Shown: positions 8,001 through 43,559 of the stretch, in pieces
Position numbering within the stretch: the stretch's first letter is position 1
Layout: every line of letters starts with the position of its first letter
NCBI GenBank assembly: GCA_031292215.1
Contig: JARLHO010000081.1
Location: 1-58,127, forward strand
DNA: 58,127 nucleotides
Direction: 5' to 3'
DNA from: Syntrophobacteraceae bacterium
GTDB lineage: Bacteria; Desulfobacterota; Syntrophobacteria; Syntrophobacterales; Syntrophobacteraceae
Program-made: the position numbers and the translations under genes
Notes under the pieces: model-generated
Seen by the model: the letters and a program-made list of their open reading frames with translations, nothing else
What the model was told of the DNA's origin: nothing
The model's database searches: none

Positions 8001-8136
8001 GCTCGGTATATCGATCGTTGGCGGGCTCATTTTTAGCCAGATGCTCACCTTGTTTACGACCCCGGTTATTTACCTGTATATGGACCGCTTGAGACTTTGG
8101 TTGCAGCGCGTGCGGGGAAAAGGCACAGTAGCGTAA
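5053..8136 (+). CDS. mdtC: RND efflux transporter subunit, MdtC-type
   Basis: A 1027-residue RND pump closely similar in layout to its neighbour, starting MNLSSIFIKRPVATTL. The helix 4 motif [14 protein letters not shown] and the helix 10 motif LVKKNGILIVDFAL are intact, so the proton relay is present in both paralogues. It follows the MdtB-type gene by 5 bases. A hairpin follows at 8139-8167, which closes a three-gene operon. No outer-membrane TolC-like gene or regulator is adjacent within the window. The B and C labels are assigned by operon order, since the two pumps cannot be told apart with confidence by eye. Confidence 0.92.
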   Translation: MNLSSIFIKRPVATTLLTIGMALAGVVAFHSLPVSPLPQVDFPTLSVSAGLPGADPETMATSVAAPLERQFAHIAGVSEMTSTSFQGETVIALQFDLDRDIDGAARDVQAAISAARTYLPSDLPSNPTYRKVNPAGAPILIMSLTSDTVSRAQMYDEASTVLQQRISQVSGVGQVVVGGGSLPAVRVELNPSALDKYGIGLEDVRTMLQATNVSRPAGKLSSGRRTWEIQANDQLHKASQYSHLIVRYTAGAAVRLSDLGEVRDSVENVRNAGYVNGKPAVMMLVFPQPGANIIETVASVRKILPQLAATLPGRVNFSVVLDRTPPIRDSLREVELALIISAILVILVVFAFLRNARATLIPAVAVPVSLVSTFAVMYLFGYSLDNLSLMALTVATGFVVDDAIVVVENIIRYIEKGETPMEAAMRGAREITFTVISMSLSLVAVFIPLLMMGGMVGRLFREFGVTLAVAVTISLLVSLTLTPMMCARLLGKEKPRAHGHLYRANEWLFNQMKDLYDVGLRWALRHSLLMLALTFVMIVSSIGLYVFIPKGFFPEQDNGRLMGIIQAEQDISFQAMDKKLTRVMGIIRKDPDVADAIGFTGGMGATNVGRMYITLKSFDKRKASAKQVIGRLYKKLAGVSGAPTYLIPTQELSIGAHMGTLLYQYTINADSLAVLNKWAPLILEKLESLPQLSHVNSDQQESGLMTSLVIDRATASRLGINTQLIDNVLYDAFGQRQVSITYMPLNQYHVVMEVAPRYWRRPDILQKLFVRSPAGDEVPLSDFARYEPKATSLSIDHSGQFPSITFSFNLAKGYALGDAVNAIEAATSKMVMPATIYGSFPGTAGAFKASLSNQPFLIFAALAAVYIVLGILYESYIHPVTILSTLPSAGVGALVALILLRMDLTIIAIIGIILLIGLVKKNGILIVDFALEAERKEGMEPERAIYEASLLRFRPIMMTTLAALLGALPLALGMGVGSELRRPLGISIVGGLIFSQMLTLFTTPVIYLYMDRLRLWLQRVRGKGTVA

Positions 8137-8138
8137 AA

Positions 8139-8167
8139 CAAAAGCCGAGGTCCGGAGCCGGCTTTTG
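8139..8167 (+). terminator. Terminator of the mdtABC operon
   Basis: An inverted repeat CAAAAGCCG / CGGCTTTTG with an 11-base spacer begins 3 bases after the mdtC stop. It is followed by GCGCG rather than a T-run, so termination may be partial. The DNA from here to 8369 shows no gene. Confidence 0.6.
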
Positions 8168-8369
8168 CGCGCGTGGAAAAGGGGCCAAACGGGCGGAACC
8201 GGCCCTAAACCCTGGAATCGCAGGGGGCGGTCGAAACGTGTGAGAACCATGATGGGAAGAGGGCCGACTGGTGGAGTTTTATCCAACCCCAAGGGAGTAT
8301 GGGAATCGCAAACTCCTGAGTTTTAAGATGACGGTTTCGGCATGCGAGTAGAAAATCTTGCGAAATGGA

Positions 8370-8384
8370 TTTACATTATGTAAA
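8370..8384 (+). promoter_or_regulatory. Palindromic operator in front of brnTA
   Basis: The perfect palindrome TTTACATTATGTAAA ends 8 bases before the brnT start codon. A TTGCGA at 8358-8363, with a TAAATA 17 bases later (8381-8386), could be the promoter it overlaps. BrnA-type antitoxins repress their own operon, so this is the obvious candidate binding site; that role is inferred. Confidence 0.55.
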
Positions 8385-8392
8385 TACGTAGG

Positions 8393-8674
8393 ATGCGATA
8401 CACGTGGAATGAAGAGAAAAACAGCCAAAATATTTTGCGGCACGGGATTGCCTTCGAGGATGTGGTACGAATTTTCGACGGGCCGACAGTCGAACGGTTG
8501 GAAGACCGGTTTGACTATGGCGAGGATCGTATATATGCCATCGGCCTGGTAAACGGAATAGAAATCACGGTGATCTACACCGATACGGGTGCTGATGAAA
8601 GACGCTTAATATCGGCTTGGAGAGCAGAACCTTATGAAAGACTTTACTACTGGAAGAAAATCGAAGGTCGTTGA
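8393..8674 (+). CDS. brnT: BrnT family type II toxin (ribonuclease)
   Basis: A 93-residue protein with the BrnT layout: N-terminal YTWNEEKNSQNILRHGIAFED (about residues 3-23), a central I-YAIGLVNGIEITVIYTD strand pair and C-terminal RRLISAWRAEPYERLYY. BrnT is a RelE-fold ribonuclease that blocks translation. The residues usually linked to catalysis (the Trp/Glu/Lys region at the start and the Arg-rich SAWRA segment) appear intact. The ATG at 8393 gives the family N-terminus. It overlaps the antitoxin gene by 41 bases, the usual tight coupling with toxin first. It may be active because the antitoxin is also intact. Confidence 0.92.
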   Translation: MRYTWNEEKNSQNILRHGIAFEDVVRIFDGPTVERLEDRFDYGEDRIYAIGLVNGIEITVIYTDTGADERRLISAWRAEPYERLYYWKKIEGR

Positions 8675-8939
8675 ACGCGAGACGGATTGGGAAAAATTAC
8701 GTTCCATGAGCGATGCCGAGGTGCACGCCGCCATCGAGTCCGATCCGGAGGCGCGCCCTACCGACGAAGAGTTCTGGCAAGACGCTGAGGTGGTTTTGCC
8801 TCAGCGCAAGCAGGTTGTGACCATGCGGATCGATGCGGACGTGCTCGAGTGGTTTAGGCGGCAGCCGGGTTATCAGACAAGGATCAACGCAATCCTCCGG
8901 ACTTACATGAAGGCGCATAAAGATAACCAGGCAGTATGA
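8634..8939 (+). CDS. brnA: BrnA family antitoxin
   Basis: A 101-residue antitoxin. The acidic middle part (SDPEARPTDEEFWQDAEVVL, about residues 41-60) is the toxin-neutralising type of segment, and the C-terminal half (TMRIDADVLEWFRRQ..YQTRINAILRTYM) is a ribbon-helix-helix DNA-binding domain. BrnA binds BrnT and represses the operon, probably at the palindrome at 8370-8384. The ATG at 8634 lies within brnT. Immediately downstream (from 8940) is a broken YafQ-like toxin that may once have used an antitoxin of its own. Confidence 0.92.
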   Translation: MKDFTTGRKSKVVERETDWEKLRSMSDAEVHAAIESDPEARPTDEEFWQDAEVVLPQRKQVVTMRIDADVLEWFRRQPGYQTRINAILRTYMKAHKDNQAV

Positions 8940-9192
8940 GACTGGGAACGGTTGGCTCGGTTAGGCCGCTACGACATGAACCGGCTCAAGGAGGCTATGC
9001 TGCTTCTTGTTGCTAATGATGGCTCGCTTGGACCTGAATGGGTAGACCATCCGTTGGGCGGCGATTGGGCAGGACAATCGGGAATGCCACATCGGTGGCG
9101 ATTTTCTCCTGGCATATAAGATCGATAACAGCCGAAATTCAGGTTTGATTGTGTTCGTTCGCGCGGGCACGCATGCTGAGCTGTTCGCGTAG
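8940..9192 (+). pseudogene. Frameshifted remnant of a YafQ/RelE-type toxin
   Basis: From 8940 one frame reads DWERLARLGRYDMNRLKEA and continues to WVDHPLGGDWAGQ; after a +1 shift near 9080 the next frame reads ECHIGGDFLLAYKID and ends GLIVFVRAGTHAELFA at a TAG (9190-9192). Joined, these give the typical core and C-terminus of a YafQ mRNA interferase (DHPL-GDW, ECHI-DFLL-YK, G-HAEL). The N-terminal strand (usually about 15 residues) is missing, since the open frame abuts the brnA stop. A plausible intact relative is on the minus strand at 26069-26350. The gene is therefore truncated and frameshifted, and probably inactive. Confidence 0.75.
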
Positions 9193-9212
9193 GCTTTGCA
9201 AAGGAGACGAAA

Positions 9213-9698
9213 ATGGAATGGCGAGAAGTGGTCGAACATCCAAGCCTGCAAGACCTGCCTTTCAAGATCGAAACCAATGCGGAAGGGTACATCATGATGG
9301 TCGCGGCCAAGAATAAACACAGGGGTTATCAGGCGCGCATAACGGCTTGGTTCGAGCACCATGGAGAGGAAAACAAAGCGATACCGGCATGCAGTATCCA
9401 GACTTCCGATGGGGTTAAGATTGCCGATGTCGCATGGAGAAGCACGGAGTTTATTAAAAGAAACAAGTATAATGATCCCTACGAGGAATCTCCCGAAGTC
9501 GTTGTCGAAGTGATATCGCCTTCCAACAGTGAAAAGGCGATGAAAGGCAAAATGTCATTATATTTCGAGGCCGGGGCTAAAGAAGTCTGGTTCTGCGACG
9601 ATGAGGGCAATATGCGTTTCTTTAATCCTCAAGGGGAATTGGGAAAAAGCGGGCTTTTCGGTCAATTTCCGGGACGTATCGACATCGGCATCGAGTGA
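9213..9698 (+). CDS. Uma2 family (DUF820) putative endonuclease
   Basis: A 161-residue protein of the Uma2 family, which has a PD-(D/E)XK nuclease-like fold. It begins MEWREVVEHPSLQDLPFKIE. The segments VKIADVAWRS (about residues 66-75) and ESPEVVVEVISPSNS (about 90-105) carry the acidic residues, and KMSLYFEAGAKEVWFCDDEG (about 114-133) the following lysine and conserved GAKEVW. The ATG follows a good ribosome site (AAAGGAG). A paralogue with nearly the same ends is at 14959-15447. The biological role of the family is not established; frequent association with mobile DNA is general knowledge, not shown here. Confidence 0.85.
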   Translation: MEWREVVEHPSLQDLPFKIETNAEGYIMMVAAKNKHRGYQARITAWFEHHGEENKAIPACSIQTSDGVKIADVAWRSTEFIKRNKYNDPYEESPEVVVEVISPSNSEKAMKGKMSLYFEAGAKEVWFCDDEGNMRFFNPQGELGKSGLFGQFPGRIDIGIE

Positions 9699-9731
9699 GC
9701 AACGTGAATCAGCGGGAAATAAGGAGCATAT

Positions 9732-10136
9732 ATGAACATCGCGATAACCACGGCCGGTCCAACCCTGGACAGTAGTGTTTTTTACGAATTCGCGCAGACG
9801 CCTTATCTACTCATCGTCGACGTGGACAACATGGCCTGCACTCCCATTGCACACACCTGCTCTACGGGCTCCGATCAGGAACTGGCCCGCACTGTCCTGG
9901 AATATCGGTGCGAGGCCGTTATAACCGGCAAACTGAACGAAAAGGCCTTCGATTTGCTTGCAGACGAGGGCGTGACGCGCTATAGCGCAGCCGATGTGTC
10001 GGCGCGGGCGGCTCTTGAAGCCATGGAAAAAAGAGAATTGGATTTGATCCGCAATGCTGACGGCTCGCCCACCTGCTCTGGTGAGCTCCACAGCGGGTCG
10101 GACAGCGCGGGCTGCGAACATAAGCACCTCCACTGA
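9732..10136 (+). CDS. NifX/NafY-like iron-molybdenum cofactor binding family protein
   Basis: A 134-residue protein starting MNIAITTAGPTLDSSV, the usual first strand of the dinitrogenase Fe-Mo cofactor family (PF02579 type). GSDQELARTVLEYRCEAVITGKLNEKAFDLL (split here across about residues 47-77) and the following GVTRYSAADV complete the small ribonuclease H-like fold. The last 25 residues form a Cys/His tail (CSGELHSG, GCEHKHLH) that could bind metal. No nitrogenase gene is in the window; such orphan proteins are common in anaerobes, and their cargo is usually unknown. Confidence 0.75.
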   Translation: MNIAITTAGPTLDSSVFYEFAQTPYLLIVDVDNMACTPIAHTCSTGSDQELARTVLEYRCEAVITGKLNEKAFDLLADEGVTRYSAADVSARAALEAMEKRELDLIRNADGSPTCSGELHSGSDSAGCEHKHLH

Positions 10137-10189
10137 ACCCGAGCCGGTCGGGGCGATATGGGTGGCGAAGAGCCGTAGTCGCTCCGCCT

Positions 10190-10396
10190 CGCCAAGCTGG
10201 TTTTTCGAGTTTTTGTAATTTCTCCCGGAGCGATTCCACTCGCTTTCTAGAGAAGAAAACCGGCGTAAGGCTTTGTGGCGTCGCCGGACGGGTAGCTGGG
10301 CTTTTAGAATGTTTTCGGCTTCTTTGCAGGTGATGGAGTCCCGTTTGGCAAGACGGGTGGCCTGTTCTTTGGCCGAGGTGTGGACGACGCGTCATT
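10190..10396 (-). pseudogene. Degenerate duplicate of the coaE 3' end
   Basis: Read on the minus strand this DNA encodes VHTSAKEQATRLAKRD, then KEAENILKAQLP, and after a frameshift and a roughly 27-base deletion RKRVESLREKLQKLEKPA. These match the last 70 or so residues of the complete coaE gene at 11219-12631 (VHISAEEQAIRLAKRD, QEAENILKAQLP, KKRVESLWEELQKLEKPA). The copy has no start and cannot be functional. Between it and the real coaE lie a dispersed repeat, a HicB-like gene and a 42-codon open frame. Confidence 0.88.
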
Positions 10397-10500
10397 GCAA
10401 GCGGCGGGAGAGTAAATCCCCCCAACCCCCCTTTGAAAAAAAGGGGGGCGATTGAGCCAAGCCCCTCCGTGCGACTTTGCAAAAGGGGGGGGCGATTGAT
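10392..10500. repeat. Dispersed C-run/G-run intergenic repeat, copy B
   Basis: CATTGCAAGCGGCGGGAGAG followed by TAAATCCCCCCAACCCCCC, an A-run, GGGGGGCGATTGAGCCAAGC and a second G-run unit. The leading CATTGCAAGCGGCGGG segment is shared, in inverse orientation, with copy D (53904-54045), so the repeat unit is longer than the C-run block. It abuts the coaE relic. Confidence 0.85.
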
Positions 10501-10571
10501 CCTGGGGAGTATGGAGCCCCGGGTACGAAGCGACCTGTATGAGCAACAGGAAATTTTTTTTTATTTTTAAC

Positions 10572-10654
10572 ATCTGGAAAGACTCGCCCGTGGACGTGGT
10601 GCAGATCAAAAATATTCTGGAGGGCTAAGAGAACCGGGCTGTTGACTCGTCCCA
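10572..10654 (+). pseudogene. Relic of a small gene ending in ILEG
   Basis: An open stretch reads IWKDSPVDVVQIKNILEG and stops at TAA (10626-10628). The 41 bases 10614-10654 match, in inverse orientation and with about five differences by eye, bases 26640-26680, where another frame ends ARVKKILEG. Only the 3' end and trailing sequence of some small gene appear to survive at both places. The parent gene is unknown. Confidence 0.5.
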
Positions 10655-10727
10655 CCCCGTGTGCCTACATAAAGCTCATGGACTGCCTTGTTGGCCGCTG
10701 CTTTTCTGCGAGTCGGGAGATCAAACG

Positions 10728-11090
10728 ATGGAAGCTCCATCCGGTGCGGTAACCTTTAGCATCCTGATCAAGAAGACCGAACAATACGGCTTCGTCGCTC
10801 ATTGCCTGGAACTTGACCTGGTGGCCACTGCGGCTACCATGGAGGCGGTAAAGGCCGATATTTTCGATGTGATTGTGGCCCAGGTTCACCATGCCTTCGC
10901 CAATGACAATCTCGAATATCTTTACCACCCAGCCCCCTCCGAGGTCTGGAAAGAATTCTATGAGGGCCGTGAACAGCAGATCGACTATTATCCCGTATCC
11001 AAAAATAAAGAAGACGAAAAGCTCGAAAAGTTTGTGCCGCCCTGGATAATTGGACATACCTGTCACTCCATGGGGGCGCAGCATGTCTAA
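10728..11090 (+). CDS. HicB-like protein
   Basis: A 120-residue protein. Residues about 8-55 (VTFSILIKKTEQYGFVAHCL, then ELDLVATAATMEAVKADIFD) have the partially degraded RNase H-like beta-strand pattern of HicB antitoxins, but the usual C-terminal helix-turn-helix is not visible; instead there is an aromatic and charged tail with PPWIIGH. The ATG at 10728 is chosen over one 69 bases upstream because the family pattern begins shortly after it. It overlaps a 42-codon frame by 8 bases. No HicA-type toxin with its double-stranded RNA-binding fold is recognisable, so a toxin-antitoxin function is only a possibility. Confidence 0.6.
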   Translation: MEAPSGAVTFSILIKKTEQYGFVAHCLELDLVATAATMEAVKADIFDVIVAQVHHAFANDNLEYLYHPAPSEVWKEFYEGREQQIDYYPVSKNKEDEKLEKFVPPWIIGHTCHSMGAQHV

Positions 11091-11211
11091 AGGCTCCCAA
11101 TTCACCATCAAAAACCACGGCATGGGGATAGAGATAACCGTTCCTGTCATCAATGCGGCGCTCAGAAGATTTGATATAGACTCGAAAGAATTTTGGGGAG
11201 AGACGCCATGA
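11083..11211 (+). CDS. Small 42-residue protein coupled to the HicB-like gene
   Basis: The frame begins ATG at 11083, inside the end of the HicB-like gene, and reads MSKGSQFTIKNHGMGIEI to the end DSKEFWGETP. The 8-base overlap suggests translational coupling. It ends 7 bases before the convergent coaE stop. I do not recognise it. It could be the partner of the HicB-like protein, or a chance frame. Confidence 0.45.
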   Translation: MSKGSQFTIKNHGMGIEITVPVINAALRRFDIDSKEFWGETP

Positions 11212-11218
11212 GCCGGCG

Positions 11219-12631
11219 TCAAGCCGGTTTTTCGAGCTTTTGTAACTCTTCCCAGAGCGATTCCACTCGCTTTTTAGTCGTTTCCAGATCGCATTCATTG
11301 TCTAGAAGAAAACCGGCGTAAGGCTTTTTGGCCTCGATGGGCAACTGGGCTTTTAGAATGTTTTCGGCTTCTTGTAAGGAGATTGCGTCACGTTTGGCAA
11401 GACGGATCGCCTGCTCTTCGGCCGAGATGTGGACGACGACAACGGTATCGAAAAGATAGACAAGGTTTAGCTCGATAAGAAGGGGAACGGCCACCTGGAT
11501 GATGGCCCCGGGGTTTTTTTGGGTTATGGCTTCGACCTGGCGGAAGAATGCGTCGTAGATGGGGGGGTGGGTGAAGCTCTCCAGCTTTTTACGCTTCTCC
11601 AGGTCATTAAAGACGATTTTGGACATGGCCTTTCGGTCCAGTCGCCCATCGGGCTCAAGGACCTGTTTTCCGAAGTAATCGACGATTTTTGCCAGCGCAT
11701 CGGAGCCGGGTTCCACGACCTGCCGGGCGATGAGGTCGAAGTCGATAAGGGGTGCGCCCAGTTTTTCAAGCACGGCGGATACCGTCGTTTTGCCGCAGGC
11801 AATGCCTCCGGTGATCCCGACCAGAAGCGGTTTGCCTTTGCCCCTGGCTTTGGACAGGATTTCGTCGAGTTTTTCGTAGGAAAGGGGAAACTGCGGCGCC
11901 AGATCGGTTTCTATTCCCGCAAAGCTTATGGGATAGCGGACTCCTCTTCGGTAGAGCGCCTCCATGCCGTGGAGGGCCTTTTGCAGAAGCCCCGCAGGGA
12001 GCGCCATCGCCAGGTCTTCATCCTGCGCATGGCCGTAGCGCCTTTCCCCGTAGCAGGGAATGTAGAGCGAGGGTTTGCCGGTGTTAAAACAGCGCGCGAT
12101 ACCATCGGAGCAAGACGATTCTCCCACGCAGTAAAACTCCATGACCTCGTAGCGGCTAAACTGCAGCGAATTTATAAGAAGCATCATCTGCGCGGGGTTG
12201 GCGTAGATGAGAACCATGTCGGGCTCAAAAGGGTTATAGGCAAGGGGCGCCAGGACCACCGCATCATAATTTCCGGTGGAAATCCTCGGGATGGAGGCCT
12301 CCATTTTGCGGCCGTCCTCTTTGGTGGCGGTCCAGACGATGCTTCGAAAGGAGCCGTCCTTGTGGGTTGCGGGAACCTCGCAGAGCCCCAGGATGGAGGG
12401 GCAGGTGGAAAAGAGGAAATCGTCTGCTACTGCTCCAACGGTCCAGTCGAAACTGCGGACCTGACCGATTAGCTGGCAGAGGGTGACCTTGTTGGCGGGT
12501 CTTCTCAGGAAGGGGACTTTGCCGAGTTGCGATCTGTCTTTTAGCATCTTTACGGCTACCGGAAAGTACTTGAGGCGCATGAGGGCTTCCAGGCGCCGAA
12601 CAAGTTTTCCCCAGTCATTTTTTTCTTCCAT
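11219..12631 (-). CDS. coaE: DUF169 domain fused to dephospho-CoA kinase
   Basis: A 470-residue two-domain protein. Residues about 1-255 form a DUF169 domain (FPVAVKML, CQLIGQVRS, DDFLFSTCPSILGL, IYANPAQMM, CYGERRYGHAQDED), an uncharacterised family with conserved cysteines. Residues about 268-465 are dephospho-CoA kinase, which phosphorylates dephospho-CoA in the last step of CoA synthesis. The P-loop GITGGIACGKTT is at 272-283, with IDFDLIARQVVEPG, the THPPI motif and VPLLIE following. Ordinary CoaE is about 200 residues. The ATG at 12631 has GGAGA 8 bases upstream. There is no stop or frameshift between the domains. The 3' end is duplicated at 10190-10396. Confidence 0.9.
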   Translation of the reverse strand: MEEKNDWGKLVRRLEALMRLKYFPVAVKMLKDRSQLGKVPFLRRPANKVTLCQLIGQVRSFDWTVGAVADDFLFSTCPSILGLCEVPATHKDGSFRSIVWTATKEDGRKMEASIPRISTGNYDAVVLAPLAYNPFEPDMVLIYANPAQMMLLINSLQFSRYEVMEFYCVGESSCSDGIARCFNTGKPSLYIPCYGERRYGHAQDEDLAMALPAGLLQKALHGMEALYRRGVRYPISFAGIETDLAPQFPLSYEKLDEILSKARGKGKPLLVGITGGIACGKTTVSAVLEKLGAPLIDFDLIARQVVEPGSDALAKIVDYFGKQVLEPDGRLDRKAMSKIVFNDLEKRKKLESFTHPPIYDAFFRQVEAITQKNPGAIIQVAVPLLIELNLVYLFDTVVVVHISAEEQAIRLAKRDAISLQEAENILKAQLPIEAKKPYAGFLLDNECDLETTKKRVESLWEELQKLEKPA

Positions 12632-14765: not shown

Positions 14766-14958
14766 TGTGGATGGAACGGGGCCGTCTTCCCGTGCCCGTT
14801 TCGGGCAGCGCGGGTGGATCGACAGTCGAGCCGCGAAGGGGATCTTTTGGAGCGTTGCAGGTGGAGGTTCCCCAAAATGATGGCGATAGACTTGCGGTGA
14901 GCGAGGCGTGGAGCTGGAGCTTTTTGTCACCAGGCGTCCCGGGAAAGGAGAAACCAAA

Positions 14959-15447
14959 ATGGAATGGCGTGAAGTGGTCGAGCATCCAAGCCTAAGAGAT
15001 CTACCTTTTAAGATCGAAACGAACGAGTGGGGGAAGATTATGATGGCTCCCGCCTCATACGCGCATGGGGTGTATCAGATGGAGATAGCAGGATTGCTAA
15101 AAAGCTTGGCGAAGGAAGGCAGGGTCTCAACGGAGTGCCCCGTTCAAACTTCCAAGGGCACGCGGGTGGCCGACGCTGCATGGGCAAGCGCAGCATTCCA
15201 CAAAAAGCATGGAATCAGGAAGTTGGCGCTTCCCGAATCCCCGGAAGTTGTTGTTGAAATAGAGTCTCCATCGAACAGCTCTGCCGAGCTGCAAGAAAAA
15301 AGGCTGCTTTATTTCGAGGTAGGCGCTAAGGAGTTCTGGCTTTGCGATGAGGATGGCAATATGCGCTTTTTCAATCCTCAAGGGGAATTGCAAAGAAGCG
15401 AGCTTTTCAGGGAATTTCCAGGACACATCGCAATCGATGTTATGTGA
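14959..15447 (+). CDS. Uma2 family (DUF820) putative endonuclease, second copy
   Basis: A 162-residue paralogue of the protein at 9213-9698. It shares the start MEWREVVEHPSL-DLPFKIETN, the nuclease core (VADAAWASA, ESPEVVVEIESPSNS, LLYFEVGAKEFWLCDEDG) and the ending NMRFFNPQGEL. The ATG at 14959 is chosen because it matches that paralogue and has GGAAAGGAG upstream; an in-frame ATG at 14908 has no such support. Similarity at the DNA level extends through the ribosome site, so the two genes derive from one another or from a common mobile source. Confidence 0.85.
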   Translation: MEWREVVEHPSLRDLPFKIETNEWGKIMMAPASYAHGVYQMEIAGLLKSLAKEGRVSTECPVQTSKGTRVADAAWASAAFHKKHGIRKLALPESPEVVVEIESPSNSSAELQEKRLLYFEVGAKEFWLCDEDGNMRFFNPQGELQRSELFREFPGHIAIDVM

Positions 15448-24557: not shown

Positions 24558-25085
24558 ATGGTGGAATCTCAAAAGGGCCTTTTGATAGTCTTTACCGGAG
24601 ACGGGAAAGGAAAGACCACCGCCGCGCTGGGTATGGCTTTGCGCGCCGCAGGACATGGCATGAGGGTGTTGGTGCTCCAGTTCATAAAGGGAGCGTGGAC
24701 CTACGGAGAGCTCGTATCTCTTAAGAAAATCGAAGAGATCGAAATTAAGCCTCTGGGGACCGGTTTTACCTGGAAAAAGGAAAATCTGGAAGAAGACAGG
24801 CGGCTGGCTGAGGCCGGGTGGCGGGAGGCTGTCTCGGAGATAAATGGGGGCAGGTGGGATATGTTAGTTCTAGACGAACTAAATATTGTGCTGTCTCTGG
24901 GGCTACTTGCGGTAGAAAGCGTGGTCGAGGTCTTGGGGAACCGGGCGAGCTGCCATATCGTTGCGACCGGAAGAAACGCTCCGCGGGAACTGATCGCAAT
25001 CGCAGACCTTGTGACGGAAATGAAGGTAATAAAGCACCCGTTCCTAGACCGGGGAATGAAGGCGAGCAAGGGAATCGAGTTCTAA
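24558..25085 (+). CDS. cobO: Cob(I)alamin adenosyltransferase, CobO/BtuR type
   Basis: A 175-residue ATP:corrinoid adenosyltransferase making the adenosylcobalamin bond. The P-loop TGDGKGKTTAALGMALRAAG is at about residues 13-32. VLVLQFIKGAW, MLVLDELNIVLSLGLL and ATGRNAPRELIAIADLVTEM are the other BtuR signatures, and it ends KHPFLDRGMKASKGIEF as usual. ATG at 24558 or GTG at 24561 could be the start. About 100 bases of its 3' part (24941-25041) recur in decayed form at 26769-26871. The neighbouring DNA downstream is a small accessory island. Confidence 0.93.
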   Translation: MVESQKGLLIVFTGDGKGKTTAALGMALRAAGHGMRVLVLQFIKGAWTYGELVSLKKIEEIEIKPLGTGFTWKKENLEEDRRLAEAGWREAVSEINGGRWDMLVLDELNIVLSLGLLAVESVVEVLGNRASCHIVATGRNAPRELIAIADLVTEMKVIKHPFLDRGMKASKGIEF

Positions 25086-25416
25086 GGTCGGGTCGCGTTC
25101 AAGCCACGCCGGCGTGTCGCCGCAGACGGGTTGCCAAGCCCCGACCTGCCCGACTGGCTGCGCCGGCGGCAGCTCGGACGGCAGTCCGCACCGCCTGCCG
25201 GGCAACGTATTCGCAAACTGAATTGTTAGGGCGCCGGCGCACTTAAATATTGTTTGCCCCAAGCGCATGAGCAGTAATTTAGAAAGGGGCTTGGCTCAAT
25301 CGCCCCCTTTTCTTCAAAGGGGGGTTGGGGGGATTTCAAGTCTTTTCGTACACCACGGAGTAAACTCCGTTCCAACATGCAAGGGATCAAAGCCATTAGC
25401 CGGTGATCAAAGCCGA
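25086..25416. other. Gene-free GC-rich stretch after cobO
   Basis: The first 170 bases are very GC-rich with short inverted repeats (for example around GCGCCGGCGGCAGC) but no supportable gene. Bases 25285-25338 are copy C of the dispersed repeat. A short palindrome ACGGAGTAAACTCCGT is at about 25358-25373. Confidence 0.5.
25285..25338. repeat. Dispersed C-run/G-run intergenic repeat, copy C
   Basis: GGGGCTTGGCTCAATCGCCC followed by a T-run and GGGGGGTTGGGGGGATTT. It is the shortest copy and is inverted relative to copies A and B. Confidence 0.85.
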
Positions 25417-25980
25417 TCAGCCCATCTCTTTTATATTTTTCCTGAGTATGCGTTTCTGCTCGGCTGCGTATTCTGCATCGATGTGTCCAGACTTTATCAG
25501 TTCATCATCACATCCTTCGAATATAGTGAGGAGTGCCATTCCTACGGCACTTAGCAGACCACGATAGATGTGATATCCACCGCTTTCGAGCAAATCGGCG
25601 GCCACATTCGATAGCATTGCATATACCCAGTCACGTGGGCTCGGATCAGGATGATTGGCGAGCGCCTTAAGGAAACGCCCAGGGTCTGACTTTAAAAGTT
25701 TTAAAATCGGAGCCACGGCGAGGTCGAAAGCTTCTTCATCGTAAATGCCGATCCGGACGAACCTTGACCTTGCCTCATCTATAGCGTTGAGAGCTAATTG
25801 GACAGCGTCCGAGTATCGGCCGTTTTTTAAGTTGTTGGCCAAAGGGGATGGGGGCAGCCCTTTCGATATCCTCGGCCACGTAGGAAACAGCACCAGGCTC
25901 AGGTTAACTAGATAATAGCATACGATTATAGCGACTGCCCATCCGATCGCTTGGATTATTTCACTCATCCTGCTGTTCAT
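25417..25980 (-). CDS. Hypothetical membrane-anchored protein
   Basis: A 187-residue protein that I do not recognise. One transmembrane segment at about residues 11-32 (AIGWAVAIIVCYYLVNLSLV) is followed by a helical soluble part with repeated short helices (AVQLALNAIDEARSRFV, APILKLLKSDPGRFLKALAN). It lies in the accessory island between cobO and its decayed copy. The start is uncertain between two nearby methionines (MNSRMSE). Confidence 0.6.
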   Translation of the reverse strand: MNSRMSEIIQAIGWAVAIIVCYYLVNLSLVLFPTWPRISKGLPPSPLANNLKNGRYSDAVQLALNAIDEARSRFVRIGIYDEEAFDLAVAPILKLLKSDPGRFLKALANHPDPSPRDWVYAMLSNVAADLLESGGYHIYRGLLSAVGMALLTIFEGCDDELIKSGHIDAEYAAEQKRILRKNIKEMG

Positions 25981-26068
25981 TTCTACTTGCCGGTTATGCG
26001 GCCTTTTACCGATCCCGGCCTACGGAGTGGGACGAAGCAAAAGGCTCTTTCAGCCCTCCAGGTGTCCG

Positions 26069-26350
26069 TCAAAGATCTAATTCGCTATGTGAACCCGGGC
26101 GCACAAGTTCTAGGTGATCGCCATCGGGTTTCCGGTAGATTAGAACCAAGTCTGGCCTGAGGTGGCAATCTCGATGATCGGCCCAGTCACCGGCCAGGGG
26201 GCGATCAAATTTATTCTGAGGTAGAGGCTTGTCGGCTACGAGTAAATTGATAACTTCCATCAGGACAGTATCCAGCTTTTTGCCGTGCAACCCGGATTTT
26301 TCCCGTTTATAGTCTCGGTCAAACCGGTGCGTTGTCCTAACAATCCGCAT
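26069..26350 (-). CDS. yafQ: YafQ family type II toxin (mRNA interferase)
   Basis: A 93-residue RelE-fold toxin that cleaves mRNA on the ribosome. It starts MRIVRTTHRFDRDYKREK, contains PLAGDWADHRDCHLRPDLVL and ends IYRKPDGDHLELVRPGSHSE. The catalytic-type His and Asp of the DHRDCH-D segment and the late His of GSHSEL are present. It overlaps the antitoxin gene by 14 bases. A broken relative is at 8940-9192. Confidence 0.9.
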   Translation of the reverse strand: MRIVRTTHRFDRDYKREKSGLHGKKLDTVLMEVINLLVADKPLPQNKFDRPLAGDWADHRDCHLRPDLVLIYRKPDGDHLELVRPGSHSELDL

Positions 26351-26600
26351 TCAGGTGCTCAAGGAGTTTGTCAGCCGTACCTTCCCATTCGAATTCGCCG
26401 CGCCTGGCGGCTTTCATAGCCTCGATGGTTTTCTCATTCGGGATGAAGGGTTCAAACGGCAGTTTTTTTTCTTTTGCGATACGCTCCATCATTAACCTGA
26501 AAGCATCGGAGGCCGTAAGCCCGATGGAAGCCAGGACGATTTCAGCCTCGGTTTTGATTTTACCGTCGATCCGCGCGCGAACAACAGAATTTTCGGCCAT
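26337..26600 (-). CDS. dinJ: DinJ/RelB family antitoxin
   Basis: An 87-residue antitoxin. AENSVVRARIDGKIKTEAEI and LASIGLTASDAFRLMMERIA are the ribbon-helix-helix dimerisation and DNA-binding part; the C-terminal half (PNEKTIEAMKAARRGEFEWE) neutralises the toxin. The ATG at 26600 has GGGAGG upstream. It forms a complete type II pair with the gene at 26069-26350 and should repress its own promoter. Confidence 0.9.
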   Translation of the reverse strand: MAENSVVRARIDGKIKTEAEIVLASIGLTASDAFRLMMERIAKEKKLPFEPFIPNEKTIEAMKAARRGEFEWEGTADKLLEHLNADC

Positions 26601-26639
26601 TTCAAATACCTCCCGGTGAGCTATCTGTAGCTCAAGCAG

Positions 26640-26740
26640 TGGGACGAGTCAATAAGGCGGTTCTCTTAGCCCTCCAAAATCTTTTTGACCCTGGCCGCTT
26701 CCTCTTCGGGGATAGGCAGAGCGTCCAGTCCTAATCCCCG
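26640..26740 (-). pseudogene. Relic of a small gene ending in ILEG
   Basis: On the minus strand an open stretch reads LGLDALPIPEEEAARVKKIL and stops after EG at 26666-26668. The stop region and the bases following it (26640-26680) match 10614-10654 in inverse orientation. No start codon or full reading frame is present. Confidence 0.5.
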
Positions 26741-26768
26741 CGGCGCAAATTAATCCCAACGCTTATCC

Positions 26769-26871
26769 CGGTCGAGCTGCCTTATCGTGGTGACAGGAAG
26801 AAATGGTCCGCAGGAACTGATCGCCATCGCCCATCTTGTGATGGAAATGAAGGTAATTAAAGCACCCATAA
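26769..26871 (+). pseudogene. Degenerate duplicate of the cobO 3' region
   Basis: About 100 bases align to cobO 24941-25041 with roughly 13 mismatches and one inserted T counted by eye (about 87 percent identity). The strand is the same. It encodes the remnant GRNGPQELIAIAHLVMEMKV of the cobO motif GRNAPRELIAIADLVTEMKV, then shifts frame. Upstream similarity to cobO is lost. Between the two copies lie the hypothetical membrane gene and the toxin-antitoxin pair. Confidence 0.9.
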
Positions 26872-26883
26872 GGCATGCTTAAA

Positions 26884-26918
26884 ATAAAAAAAGGGCAGTC
26901 AGAGAACCTGGCTGCCCT
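26884..26918 (-). terminator. Terminator of the gene at 27011-28156
   Basis: On the minus strand GGGCAGCCAGG, a short loop and CTGACTGCCC are followed by a run of eight Ts. It lies about 95 bases after the stop at 27011. Confidence 0.8.
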
Positions 26919-27010
26919 GGAATGGTCACTGAAACGGACAGGAAGCCCTGTGCATCCTATCCATCTTTTAAGTTTAGTACTACCGGTTCATCTGTCAATA
27001 GTCTAATTTA

Positions 27011-28156
27011 CTAAAAATTATAAACTTTTAGAGCGTCGGCCAGCTCATCCATGCACCCCGGAAGGCGGGCAGAGAGGAAGTCGCTTTCGTCGGCCTCGAC
27101 CATGCCATCGGAGGCGACGGCTTCGGCAAAGGCCAGTCTTTCTACGGGTGAGAGGGCATGGAAAAGCGAAAAAATCTCCTCGACTTTTGGTAAATTCGTA
27201 TCTTTTCGTAGGGTTTCCCAGGCTTGTCTAAACCCGCGAAGAATTCCCGGCAGGCAGTTCGGACCGGCCCAGGCAGGCTCTCCTACGCCGTCCAGCCGGT
27301 CTAGTCGCAATCTCAGGCAAAGATTAACGAAAAAATGGAGCGAGCCGACCATTTTGTCCATGGAGTCCGCCTGTCGTGACAGAAGAGGCCGATAGCCCCT
27401 TGCGGTTATCAGCTTGAGGCTCACCGGGCTTTGGCTGTCGTCGATTATGAAATCCCCGGCCGCGTTGTGCCAGGGATAGATTTGGGAAAAGGAGTCGGGG
27501 TCAAGGTAGGAGGTAAGGATTTTGGAGGCCTGGGCGTAGAGTTCGGGGACTTGGGCCGCAATGAGGGTTTGCGCCTTTCCAAAATCTTTCCATATCTTTA
27601 TGGCCGGGGGGGTGCCGCAGTCCTGCGCCGAGAGGTGAAACTCGTGATGGTTTTTAAACCACTGGGCAATGAAAAGCGAGATGCCCGGGGCCTTTGCGGA
27701 AATGAAGGGCAAAGGCAGATAGGGCAGATCGAATTTTTTGCCAAGGTCGCCAAGCAGTCCGGTCTCCACCTGAAGGAATGCCTGCTGCTCGGGCGAAAAG
27801 GCGCAGTTTACGGCAAATTCTATGGTATCATCGGGAAAGCGCAAGACGAGGCGCGAAACGCTGTAGAGGGCGCCGTGTTTTTCGGCTATGAGGTCGATAG
27901 AGGTGGCCGTCTCTAACTTTCCAACGGGTTTGGGCTGCTTTTCGAGAAGCTCTTTTAGGACTGTAAAGGAGTTGTCGCAAAGGATATCGGTAACCGCATG
28001 GAGGTATTGGCCGTAGGTGAGTCCGCTGCCTCCGGGCAGCTCCTGGCTGCTTATCGACTGTTTTTCGGACCCCGAGTCGAGTGGCGCCAAACCCGAGCCG
28101 GTGTTTACAAAGCATTGTATTGCGGTGGCGGCGCAAACCGCCTTTTTTTTGCCCAT
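27011..28156 (-). CDS. Hypothetical protein
   Basis: A 381-residue protein with no domain I can name. It appears soluble: no signal peptide or transmembrane helix. Visible features are a Gly/Ser-rich stretch near residue 25-45, VLRFPDDTIEFAVNCAFSPE, IYPWHNAAGDFIIDDSQSPV (which recalls the phosphate-transfer loop of some kinases, weakly), and a late acidic stretch. It is transcribed alone, with a terminator at 26884-26918, and diverges from the siroheme decarboxylase gene at 28309. Codon use looks like that of its neighbours. Confidence 0.65.
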   Translation of the reverse strand: MGKKKAVCAATAIQCFVNTGSGLAPLDSGSEKQSISSQELPGGSGLTYGQYLHAVTDILCDNSFTVLKELLEKQPKPVGKLETATSIDLIAEKHGALYSVSRLVLRFPDDTIEFAVNCAFSPEQQAFLQVETGLLGDLGKKFDLPYLPLPFISAKAPGISLFIAQWFKNHHEFHLSAQDCGTPPAIKIWKDFGKAQTLIAAQVPELYAQASKILTSYLDPDSFSQIYPWHNAAGDFIIDDSQSPVSLKLITARGYRPLLSRQADSMDKMVGSLHFFVNLCLRLRLDRLDGVGEPAWAGPNCLPGILRGFRQAWETLRKDTNLPKVEEIFSLFHALSPVERLAFAEAVASDGMVEADESDFLSARLPGCMDELADALKVYNF

Positions 28157-41756: not shown

Positions 41757-43070
41757 ATGTTCTGTGTAGTTTTCTATGTCTTGGTCCTCCTGCTGCTCAT
41801 CGTTTTGAACGGCTTTCTCGCGATGTCCGAACTCGCCGTGATGTCTTCGAACAAAACGCGTTTGCAGAGGCGAGCGCAGGAGGATAATTCGAACGCGGCC
41901 GCTGCCCTGGTTCTTGCCCGCAACCCGCATCGCTTTCTTGCGACCGTGCAGATCGGCATCACGCTCATCGGTGTTTTGAGCGGGGCTTTCGGGGGCGCAA
42001 GCCTTGCCGGCAGCCTTGCTCAAAAGTTGGCCGGGCTCCCCTACGTCGGCCCCTATAGCAGCGCGATTGCGATGGCGCTCGTTGTGAGCGCCATTACTTA
42101 CCTGTCGCTTCTTGCCGAGTTGATTCCCAAAAGAATCGCGGTGTACGCGCCCGAAAGCATAGCGGCCGCGATCGCCAAACCCATGGCGAAACTCTCAACT
42201 CTCGCCTCGCCCATTATCCATGTGCTAAGTGTTTCCACGGATTACGCCCTCCGGCTGCTGGGATTTACTCAGATGAAGCAGACCCCGGTAACCGAGGAGG
42301 AGATCCGCATCCTGATCGACCAGGCAACAGTCGCCGGGGTCCTGGAAGAAGCCGAGCAGGACATGGTGGAAAGGGTCTTCAGGCTCGGAGATCGCCGCGT
42401 CGGGGTGATGATGACGCCGCGAAACGAAGTGGTGTGGCTGGATATGAACGAGTCGCCGGAGAAAACGAGAAGAAAAATCGCAAGGTTTCCGTACTCCCGG
42501 TTCCCTGTGGGGCAGAAGGCGGGGAGTATCCAGGGGGTGGTGCATGTCCGCGACCTGGCCGTTCGGTGTCTCGCCGGAAAGCCTTTCGACCTGCGGGCCT
42601 CGATGCACAAACCGATCTTTGTGCACGAAGGCGCCAATGCTCTCAAAGCACTGGAGAGTTTCAGACGATCGGGTTTGCAGTTGGCGGTGGTTGTAGACGA
42701 ATACGGAACGATCGAGGGGATCATTACTCTTACGGACATCCTGGAAGCCGTAGTGGGCGATATCGCAACGCCGGAAATGCCCGAGGAACCCCAGATATTG
42801 CCAAAAGAGCAAAACGTCTGGCTCGTTGACGGCATGCTCCCGATAGATGAACTCATGGCTTTTCTGACCATCCCGAAACTTCCGGGCGGGCGCGCCGGTC
42901 TTTTTCGAACGGTTGGCGGATTTGTCATGTCTCACCTCAAACGCGTCCCCGTCGAGGGCGACTCTTTCGAGTGCTGCGGCTACGGATTTGAAGTGATCGA
43001 GATGGAGGGGCGAAGGGTCCGCCGGGTCCTGATAAAAAAAAGCACCGTAACGCAACCGTGCGAGGGGTGA
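41757..43070 (+). CDS. CNNM/CorC-type membrane protein with CBS pair
   Basis: A 437-residue HlyC/CorC (CNNM) family protein. Four hydrophobic segments in about residues 1-150 form the DUF21 transporter domain (MSELAVMSSNKTRLQRRAQE, TVQIGITLIGVLSGAFGGAS). Two CBS domains follow (MTPRNEVVWLDMNESPEKTR to about 270; HEGANALKALESFRRSGLQL, VVDEYGTIEGIITLTDILEA), and a C-terminal CorC_HlyC domain (LVDGMLPIDEL to the end). Members are ion transporters, magnesium or cobalt efflux being the usual proposal. The gene is followed by a long low-complexity repeat directly after its stop. Confidence 0.9.
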   Translation: MFCVVFYVLVLLLLIVLNGFLAMSELAVMSSNKTRLQRRAQEDNSNAAAALVLARNPHRFLATVQIGITLIGVLSGAFGGASLAGSLAQKLAGLPYVGPYSSAIAMALVVSAITYLSLLAELIPKRIAVYAPESIAAAIAKPMAKLSTLASPIIHVLSVSTDYALRLLGFTQMKQTPVTEEEIRILIDQATVAGVLEEAEQDMVERVFRLGDRRVGVMMTPRNEVVWLDMNESPEKTRRKIARFPYSRFPVGQKAGSIQGVVHVRDLAVRCLAGKPFDLRASMHKPIFVHEGANALKALESFRRSGLQLAVVVDEYGTIEGIITLTDILEAVVGDIATPEMPEEPQILPKEQNVWLVDGMLPIDELMAFLTIPKLPGGRAGLFRTVGGFVMSHLKRVPVEGDSFECCGYGFEVIEMEGRRVRRVLIKKSTVTQPCEG

Positions 43071-43290
43071 AGGAGCGAGGAGCGAGGAGCGGAGAAGCGA
43101 AGAAGCGAAGAAGCGGAGAAGCGAAGGAGCGAAGAAGCGGAGAAGCGGAGAAGCGAAGAAGCGAAGAAGCGGAGAAGCGGAGAAGCGAAGAAGCGAAGAA
43201 GCGGAGAAGCGGAGAAGCGGAGAAGCGGAGAAGCGAAGAAGCGAAGAAGCGAAGGAGCGAAGGAGCGAAGGAGCGAAGGAGCCGAGAAGG
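43070..43290. repeat. 9-base tandem repeat AGAAGCGRA
   Basis: More than 20 tandem variants of GAAGCGAA, GAAGCGGA and GGAGCGAA run without interruption from the stop of the CNNM gene. Both strands are open through it and translate to repeats such as KKRRSGEA or LLRFSASP, which are not real proteins. The rest of the gene-free interval to 43559 shows no gene. The same GAAGCG motif forms the repeats at 34236-34390. Confidence 0.9.
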
Positions 43291-43559
43291 GAGGGAGACC
43301 TTTTTCTGTCCCGGCGGGACATGAGGAGCTGTCTTGAAAAGCGAAGACGCGAAGGGACCTTTCGTGGTCCCGAGGCAACAAGAACCCGCTGCCCAAACCT
43401 GATTTAGCTGTTCCGAGATAATAGTAAAGGCTGAGTCGCGGCTTTACAAAAACATGGAATCGTTCTAAATTCGAAGGGCTCAAAAGAGTCGTCTGCCCGT
43501 TTCGCCGAGAATAGTTTGCGGATCGGCTTTCCCCATTGTTTCTTGACGGAGTCTAATCG

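Follow-up and report, generated by a model that had tools for sequence, protein, structure and literature searches.

Approximately 1.7 kb of DNA has been inserted directly behind cobO in the window (the whole 58,127-nucleotide stretch of a Syntrophobacteraceae genome analyzed here), with duplication of the end of the gene. The intact gene and a dead copy of its 3' segment now lie on either side of a cargo that includes a toxin-antitoxin pair, while close relatives have the site empty. The same layout of gene, cargo, and dead gene end is found at coaE, and both islands sit between convergent genes. Both insertions fit a pattern already described as "insertion with long target duplication"; at cobO, the cargo includes toxin-antitoxin genes.

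Insertion at cobO

Intact cobO (24564–25085, forward strand) encodes a corrinoid adenosyltransferase that matches Pfam PF02572 over its full length, with the CobA_CobO_BtuR domain complete (Pfam positions 1–172 of 172). It ends in TAA, after which foreign sequence begins immediately; among ten relatives inspected, the cobO stop is TGA in seven, TAG in two, and TAA in one. By sequence comparison, the dead copy occupies 26768–26867 on the forward strand and is missing the last ~45 coding bases. In a DNA search of the own genome, in which all 14 of 14 candidates were scored, 24941–25039 matched 26768–26867 at 86% identity (E 9.7e-26), and the ungapped part (24941–25033 against 26768–26860) was 85% identical over 93 bases. 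A sequence-only reading of this DNA had reported that the 3' end of cobO recurs at about 87% identity with one inserted base, as is borne out here, and the inserted base is real in the alignment (GTAA-TAAAG versus GTAATTAAAG). That reading placed the repeat at 24941–25041 and 26769–26871; the repeat itself stands, and its right end exceeds the detectable homology, which stops at 26867, by a few bases. The functional (left) copy of the duplicated segment is taken as 24941–25085 (forward strand), with homology to the dead copy detectable over 24941–25039, and we infer that the duplicated segment originally reached the stop codon at 25085. No third copy of the segment was found by DNA search in the whole own genome. 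A query of 26600–27010 against the whole own genome matched its own stretch, cobO, and a single piece close to coaE, and nothing else, so that the cobO segment is not a dispersed repeat.

cobO is present in 39 of 40 genomes including the own genome, and its neighborhood was compared in 13 relatives. In four congeners (G001, G007, G009, and G010), cobO is adjoined convergently by the counterpart of the window's neighbor gene (27011–28156, reverse strand), with no island between; in G003, this gene is ~4 kb from cobO, and it was not seen in the fetched stretch of the remaining eight of the 13 relatives. The native downstream region (26881–26974, no strand), in which an inverted repeat is visible by eye, also follows cobO in two congeners: by alignment, its counterpart begins 75 bases after cobO in G001 (80% identity) and directly after cobO in G007. 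The inverted repeat was not listed by the terminator scan. In the window, the region sits beside the dead copy and not beside intact cobO, and the own genome holds no second copy of it. Since the native flank adjoins the dead copy, and since the site is empty in relatives, the dead copy holds the ancestral position, and ~1.7 kb was inserted together with a duplication of the gene end.

The inserted DNA (25086–26767, no strand), which is absent at the relatives' cobO loci, contains two dispersed repeats. R1 (25110–25214, forward strand) is a dispersed repeat of ~100 bases with dozens of copies in the own genome at 93–99% identity; it is present in G007 too, and had no match in G001. By eye, R1 often sits inside a second, palindromic-looking repeat. 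We dropped an identification of the repeat after cobO as an integron attC, considered in view of the attC consensus, because the element is the ~100-base dispersed repeat. R2 (25209–25405, forward strand) is a further dispersed repeat with partial copies elsewhere in the own genome. An orphan open reading frame (ORF) of 187 amino acids (25417–25980, reverse strand), a putative membrane protein in the sequence-only reading, had no Pfam or PADLOC match, and no match in 58 other genomes, ranging from the same genus (10 genomes) out to the same phylum. Beyond it, also on the reverse strand, are a YafQ-family toxin (26069–26350; PF15738, YafQ_toxin, 85.4 bits against a cut-off of 30) and a RelB-family (DinJ-type) antitoxin (26337–26600; PF04221, 63.1 bits against a cut-off of 22.4), by which Pfam confirms the YafQ/DinJ pair read earlier from the letters.

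A parallel insertion at coaE

The Pfam scan identified an intact DUF169-coaE gene at 11219–12631 (reverse strand). Sequence comparison placed a dead copy of its 3' end at 10190–10389 (reverse strand), and between the two is an insert (10390–11216, no strand) with an ORF of 143 amino acids (10659–11090) that has no Pfam match. The dead copy carries a deletion: 10190–10389 and 11217–11438 are 75.7% identical with gaps counted and 87.2% identical over 196 aligned columns, and the homology ends within ~4 bases of the stop codon. In G007, coaE converges with a gene whose protein is 86% identical to that of the window's RND gene, at a distance of 324 bases, versus 3.1 kb in the window; within the stretches fetched, this RND gene was seen near coaE in one of five relatives (G007). 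The parallel with coaE that had been proposed from sequence thus held up, with an empty site in G007. A native intergenic flank was not recovered at coaE, where the best match of the G007 coaE–RND intergenic DNA to window positions 8101–11300 had an E of 0.45.

Across the two inserts, no integrase was found by Pfam scan among the three ORFs at cobO and the one at coaE, and PADLOC matched none of these four. Rfam gave no match in the window, and the terminal inverted repeats of the two inserts scored 16 and 13, below the shuffled 95% points of 19 and 16.

Relatedness and decay of the copies

At both loci, the intact and dead copies resemble one another more than either resembles the relatives compared. 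For cobO, they are 86.3% identical, and either is at most 82.1% identical to four relatives (two of these, G001 and G007, themselves share 86.3% identity); for coaE, the values are 87.2% between the copies and at most 75.0% against five relatives. The cobO copies also have four bases in common that relatives lack. When changes at cobO and coaE were polarized by the relatives, the numbers were small, with 24 derived changes on the dead copies, 10 on the intact copies, and four unassigned; at codon positions 1 and 2, the dead copies had 12 and the intact copies five. From these comparisons, we infer that the duplications probably postdate the divergence from G001 and that the dead copies would have been under weaker constraint, given the small numbers.

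A module shared by the two inserts

The inserts at cobO and coaE have a short module in common. Upstream of the antitoxin, it lies at 26617–26688 (reverse strand) and is 82% identical to 10606–10678 (forward strand), which lies upstream of the 143-amino-acid ORF in the coaE insert and slightly overlaps the longest reading of that ORF. A weaker copy (26043–26060, reverse strand) precedes the 187-amino-acid ORF. All three occurrences of the module (TGGAGGGCTRARAGARCC..TTGNYTCGTCCCAC) in the window lie within the cobO and coaE inserts, whereas its first half with up to three mismatches would be expected 0.18 times. Its distance upstream is 58 bases for the antitoxin, 62 for the 187-amino-acid ORF, and 23 or 92 for the coaE-insert ORF, depending on the start codon. 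At an E threshold of 1e-3, the own genome has no matches besides the two strong copies, and a search of the genus found matches in other genomes only outside the module. In the sampled stretches, a module profile gave one weak match outside the window (G007, E 0.056), and the exact core was found at 8 of 332 loci, each of which belongs to the contig of the window. A 167-base query had no match in plasmids, and an exact pattern had none in viral contigs. RNA structure was rejected as an identity for the module (z-scores 0.37, −0.52, and 1.49). By eye, TTGACT in the module is a candidate −35 box, which the promoter scan did not list.

The shared module suggests that the two inserts have a common source or belong to a common element. 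A further-reaching possibility, which we regard as speculative and quite unlikely, is that this lineage recurrently adds addiction-type cargo at gene ends without an integrase, with the end of the target itself serving as the anchor that is duplicated, and that the cargo units are travelling cassettes marked by the upstream module found before all three units.

Other spaced duplications in the genome and its relatives

We surveyed low-copy repeats (60 bases or longer, 75% identity or higher) lying within 6 kb of each other, with at most five copies in the sample. The first sample, 751 kb of the own genome counting overlaps and with the window among its stretches, was not random but came from contigs already met in the repeat search; it held 13 direct and no inverted pairs (18 direct and two inverted low-copy pairs under looser limits). 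A second sample of a further 400 kb also held 13 direct and no inverted pairs, which brings both samples to 26 direct versus 0 inverted. From the first set, we dropped L123, in which the repeat was inside one ORF, and from the second L293, L294 (three pairs), and L305, which were paralogous or internally repetitive genes. After this, and after merging pairs at one place, 13 places remained. Further examples are therefore present in the sampled own genome, and the sequence-only reading, for which their absence would have counted against a common process, did not meet with that outcome; support from empty sites is available for cobO and, less completely, for coaE.

A recognizable gene end was duplicated at seven of the 13 places: cobO, coaE, the 3' end of a tRNA-Pro gene (L118), the 3' end of brnA (L106, three copies in the sample), and the 5' ends of three genes named from translations read by eye, namely a hydroxyacid oxidase-like gene (L110), an isochorismatase-like gene (L119), and an ATPase-like gene (L122). 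Because L110 and L119 duplicate the 5' ends of genes, gene-end duplication is not specific to 3' ends. The other six places are L102, L103, L108, L109, L306, and L310. L103, L106, and L109, with three, three, and five copies in the sample, may be repeats of another kind. Gene ends may be favored because only insertions that duplicate a gene end leave the gene whole.

In relatives, where pairs were counted and not inspected singly, we found four direct and no inverted pairs in 400 kb of G007, three and none in 220 kb of G010, and two and none in 180 kb of G009. The single-contig genome G015 held three direct pairs and one inverted pair in 400 kb, and all three of the direct pairs were within long ORFs. 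G007 looks similar to the own genome in its rate of spaced repeats, these rates being rough as the stretches were non-random.

At L110 (7603–12390, G000:C8), the dead 5' part is separated from the intact gene by genes for Vsr, a type II restriction enzyme, and a type II methyltransferase. The intact copy has ~100 upstream bases in common with G001 that are missing from the dead copy. In the second block of the duplication (159 bases), the dead copy is 78.0% identical to G001 and 72.3% to the intact copy, which is itself 82.4% identical to G001. In the first, larger block, the dead copy matches the intact one at 91.7% identity, and over both blocks these two are closest (85.0%). Derived changes at L110 number 41 on the dead copy and 28 on the intact copy. 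At L118 (3768–5638, G000:C2), the 3' end of tRNA-Pro(CGG) and bases downstream of it are present on both sides of a gene for a ParA-like ATPase, and the ORFs listed there include no recognized integrase. On our reading, the duplicated part begins within the T arm, and the case resembles a classical attachment site.

How the insertions arose

The proposal that the two loci reflect a common process stands in part. The same layout at both loci, the empty sites, the shared module, and the further spaced partial duplications speak for it; an attachment core, a recombinase in the scanned insert ORFs, and a restriction to 3' ends were not supported. An attachment-like core, which the earlier reading had raised, found no support, as the longest word common to the duplicated segments of cobO and coaE is 7 bases, against a shuffled median of 8. 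Across five sites, none of the ten pairs exceeded the shuffled 95% point, and a core common to the sites was rejected, since in all ten pairs the longest exact words were no longer than shuffling produces. As for a recombinase elsewhere, which it had suggested seeking, the genome has eight tyrosine-recombinase matches, seven of them over the cut-off and none on the window's contig (C11).

Our leading reading, which we hold to be about evenly poised between right and wrong, is a one-ended integration, at cobO and coaE, of DNA that brought along a gene end of its own. Observed are the insertion itself, the empty site in relatives, the native DNA adjoining the dead copy of cobO, how closely the two copies are related, and the surplus of derived changes on the dead ones; to these the reading adds a joining that would have been one-ended and anchored by homology, and a donor that was probably close to the present species. 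In the incoming DNA, the cargo would have been attached to a version of the gene's end. Homologous recombination within the gene would have given the intact gene its present end from the incoming DNA, and the other end of the cargo would have been joined illegitimately, slightly upstream of the resident gene end; alternatively, the whole piece may have entered as a circle through one crossover. The resident gene end would thereby have been displaced beyond the cargo, to decay there. Homology that ends at the gene boundary, as at coaE, and a TAA followed by foreign DNA, as at cobO, would be expected if the incoming piece shared the gene and not the intergenic DNA. At L110, the upstream sequence kept by the intact copy and the 159-base block fit an imported version of the gene better than simple copying in place. 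However, the four bases common to the cobO copies and missing from relatives would be explained equally well by local duplication, and the larger L110 block, as well as both blocks together, place dead and intact closest. As to a donor, no match to the DNA of the insert or to any of its three proteins was found in 122 cobO loci, some of which are the same contig twice, one source set being 80 of 464 relatives, with no close sister genome included.

Three other routes would yield this structure. The cargo may have been captured in place at a staggered break, with no donor copy of the gene end involved, which we think somewhat unlikely. The genome encodes Ku adjoining a LigD-type ligase with a 3'-phosphoesterase domain (L125, G000:C3), by which such capture would be possible, and it would fit both the closeness of the two copies at cobO and coaE and the long variable direct repeats, which resemble those of restriction-modification insertions in the parts of two papers available (PMC1643837, PMC3874152). 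It leaves unexplained, however, why the homology stops at the gene boundary at both loci, and why the intact copy at L110 has extra upstream sequence in common with G001. Unlikely, in our estimate, is a tandem duplication of the gene end that decayed, with cargo and repeats entering the spacer later. The excess of direct over inverted low-copy spaced repeats (26 versus 0, or 18 versus 2 under looser limits) agrees with it, and L106 fits it; but the native downstream region is single-copy in the genome and follows only the dead copy, so that the duplicated unit would have to have ended at the stop codon. A mini-island mobilized in trans by a site-specific recombinase, with its attachment site in the 3' end of the gene, resembles our loci in layout, as do islands by which a gene end is restored. 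The tRNA-Pro case at L118 and the tyrosine recombinases encoded in the genome point the same way. With no integrase in the scanned insert ORFs, no core common to the sites, and 5' ends duplicated too, we consider this very improbable. The gene-boundary endpoints together with L110 lead us to favor one-ended homologous import among the four routes, over in-place capture, tandem duplication, and site-specific integration.

Five-base words are shared across the junctions 25086/26768 (GGTCG, cobO) and 11216/10389 (TGACG, coaE); they may be microhomology at the illegitimate joint or coincidence.

Relation to known systems

In genomic islands that carry an integrase and sit at gene or tRNA 3' ends, the gene end is restored on one side and a remnant is left on the other. 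Our loci are alike in both respects, but have no integrase in the scanned insert ORFs and no common core, and their inserts measure 0.8–1.7 kb.

Insertion with long target duplication was described by Nobusato et al. 2000 (Gene 259:99), as cited in PMC1643837 and PMC3874152, and the available portions of the literature tie it to restriction-modification systems (PMC1643837, PMC3154945, PMC3031569, PMC3874152, PMC2654758, PMC5361080, PMC3784515). As far as these portions go, the present insertions have in common with it the empty site in relatives, the direct repeats of ~100 bases, and the addiction-type cargo, and L110 is a restriction-modification example in the same genome. The insert is absent from the orthologous site in G001, G007, G009, and G010 (cobO) and in G007 (coaE); the flanking direct repeats, for which ~100 bases or more are typical of the pattern, are 100 bases at cobO and 200–222 bases at coaE; and at cobO, the repeat is derived from the target, with one copy joined to each native flank. 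In contrast to the restriction-modification cargo of the original description, the cobO cargo is a YafQ/RelB toxin-antitoxin pair with an orphan ORF. The copies here have also diverged by ~13–14%, and the duplicated segment ends at a gene boundary, unlike in the accounts available. A literature search combining long target duplication with toxin-antitoxin systems found no described toxin-antitoxin case within its coverage, outside of which are Nobusato 2000 and Furuta 2010.

The one-ended import that we favor is similar to homology-facilitated illegitimate recombination, with one homologous anchor and one illegitimate joint, and excerpts of the same sources indicate that displacement of resident sequence behind new DNA has been proposed for T6SS immunity-gene arrays (PMC3240628, PMC5361080). 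The anchor, the joint, and the displaced resident sequence proposed here all have parallels in those excerpts. The anchor here, however, would be the end of a housekeeping gene, and the 122 cobO loci held no donor.

Toxin-antitoxin genes spread widely without an obvious vehicle. Two kinds of addiction gene would be linked to one insertion route by a long-target-duplication insertion with toxin-antitoxin cargo and a restriction-modification example elsewhere in the same genome. Dead gene ends may be found beside such cargo because only insertions that duplicate the end spare an essential gene.

Elsewhere in the window, 9213–9698 and 14908–15447 encode members of a protein family, presumably resembling Uma2, that has many paralogues here and in G007, and 43045–43332 is an array of an 8-base tandem repeat.
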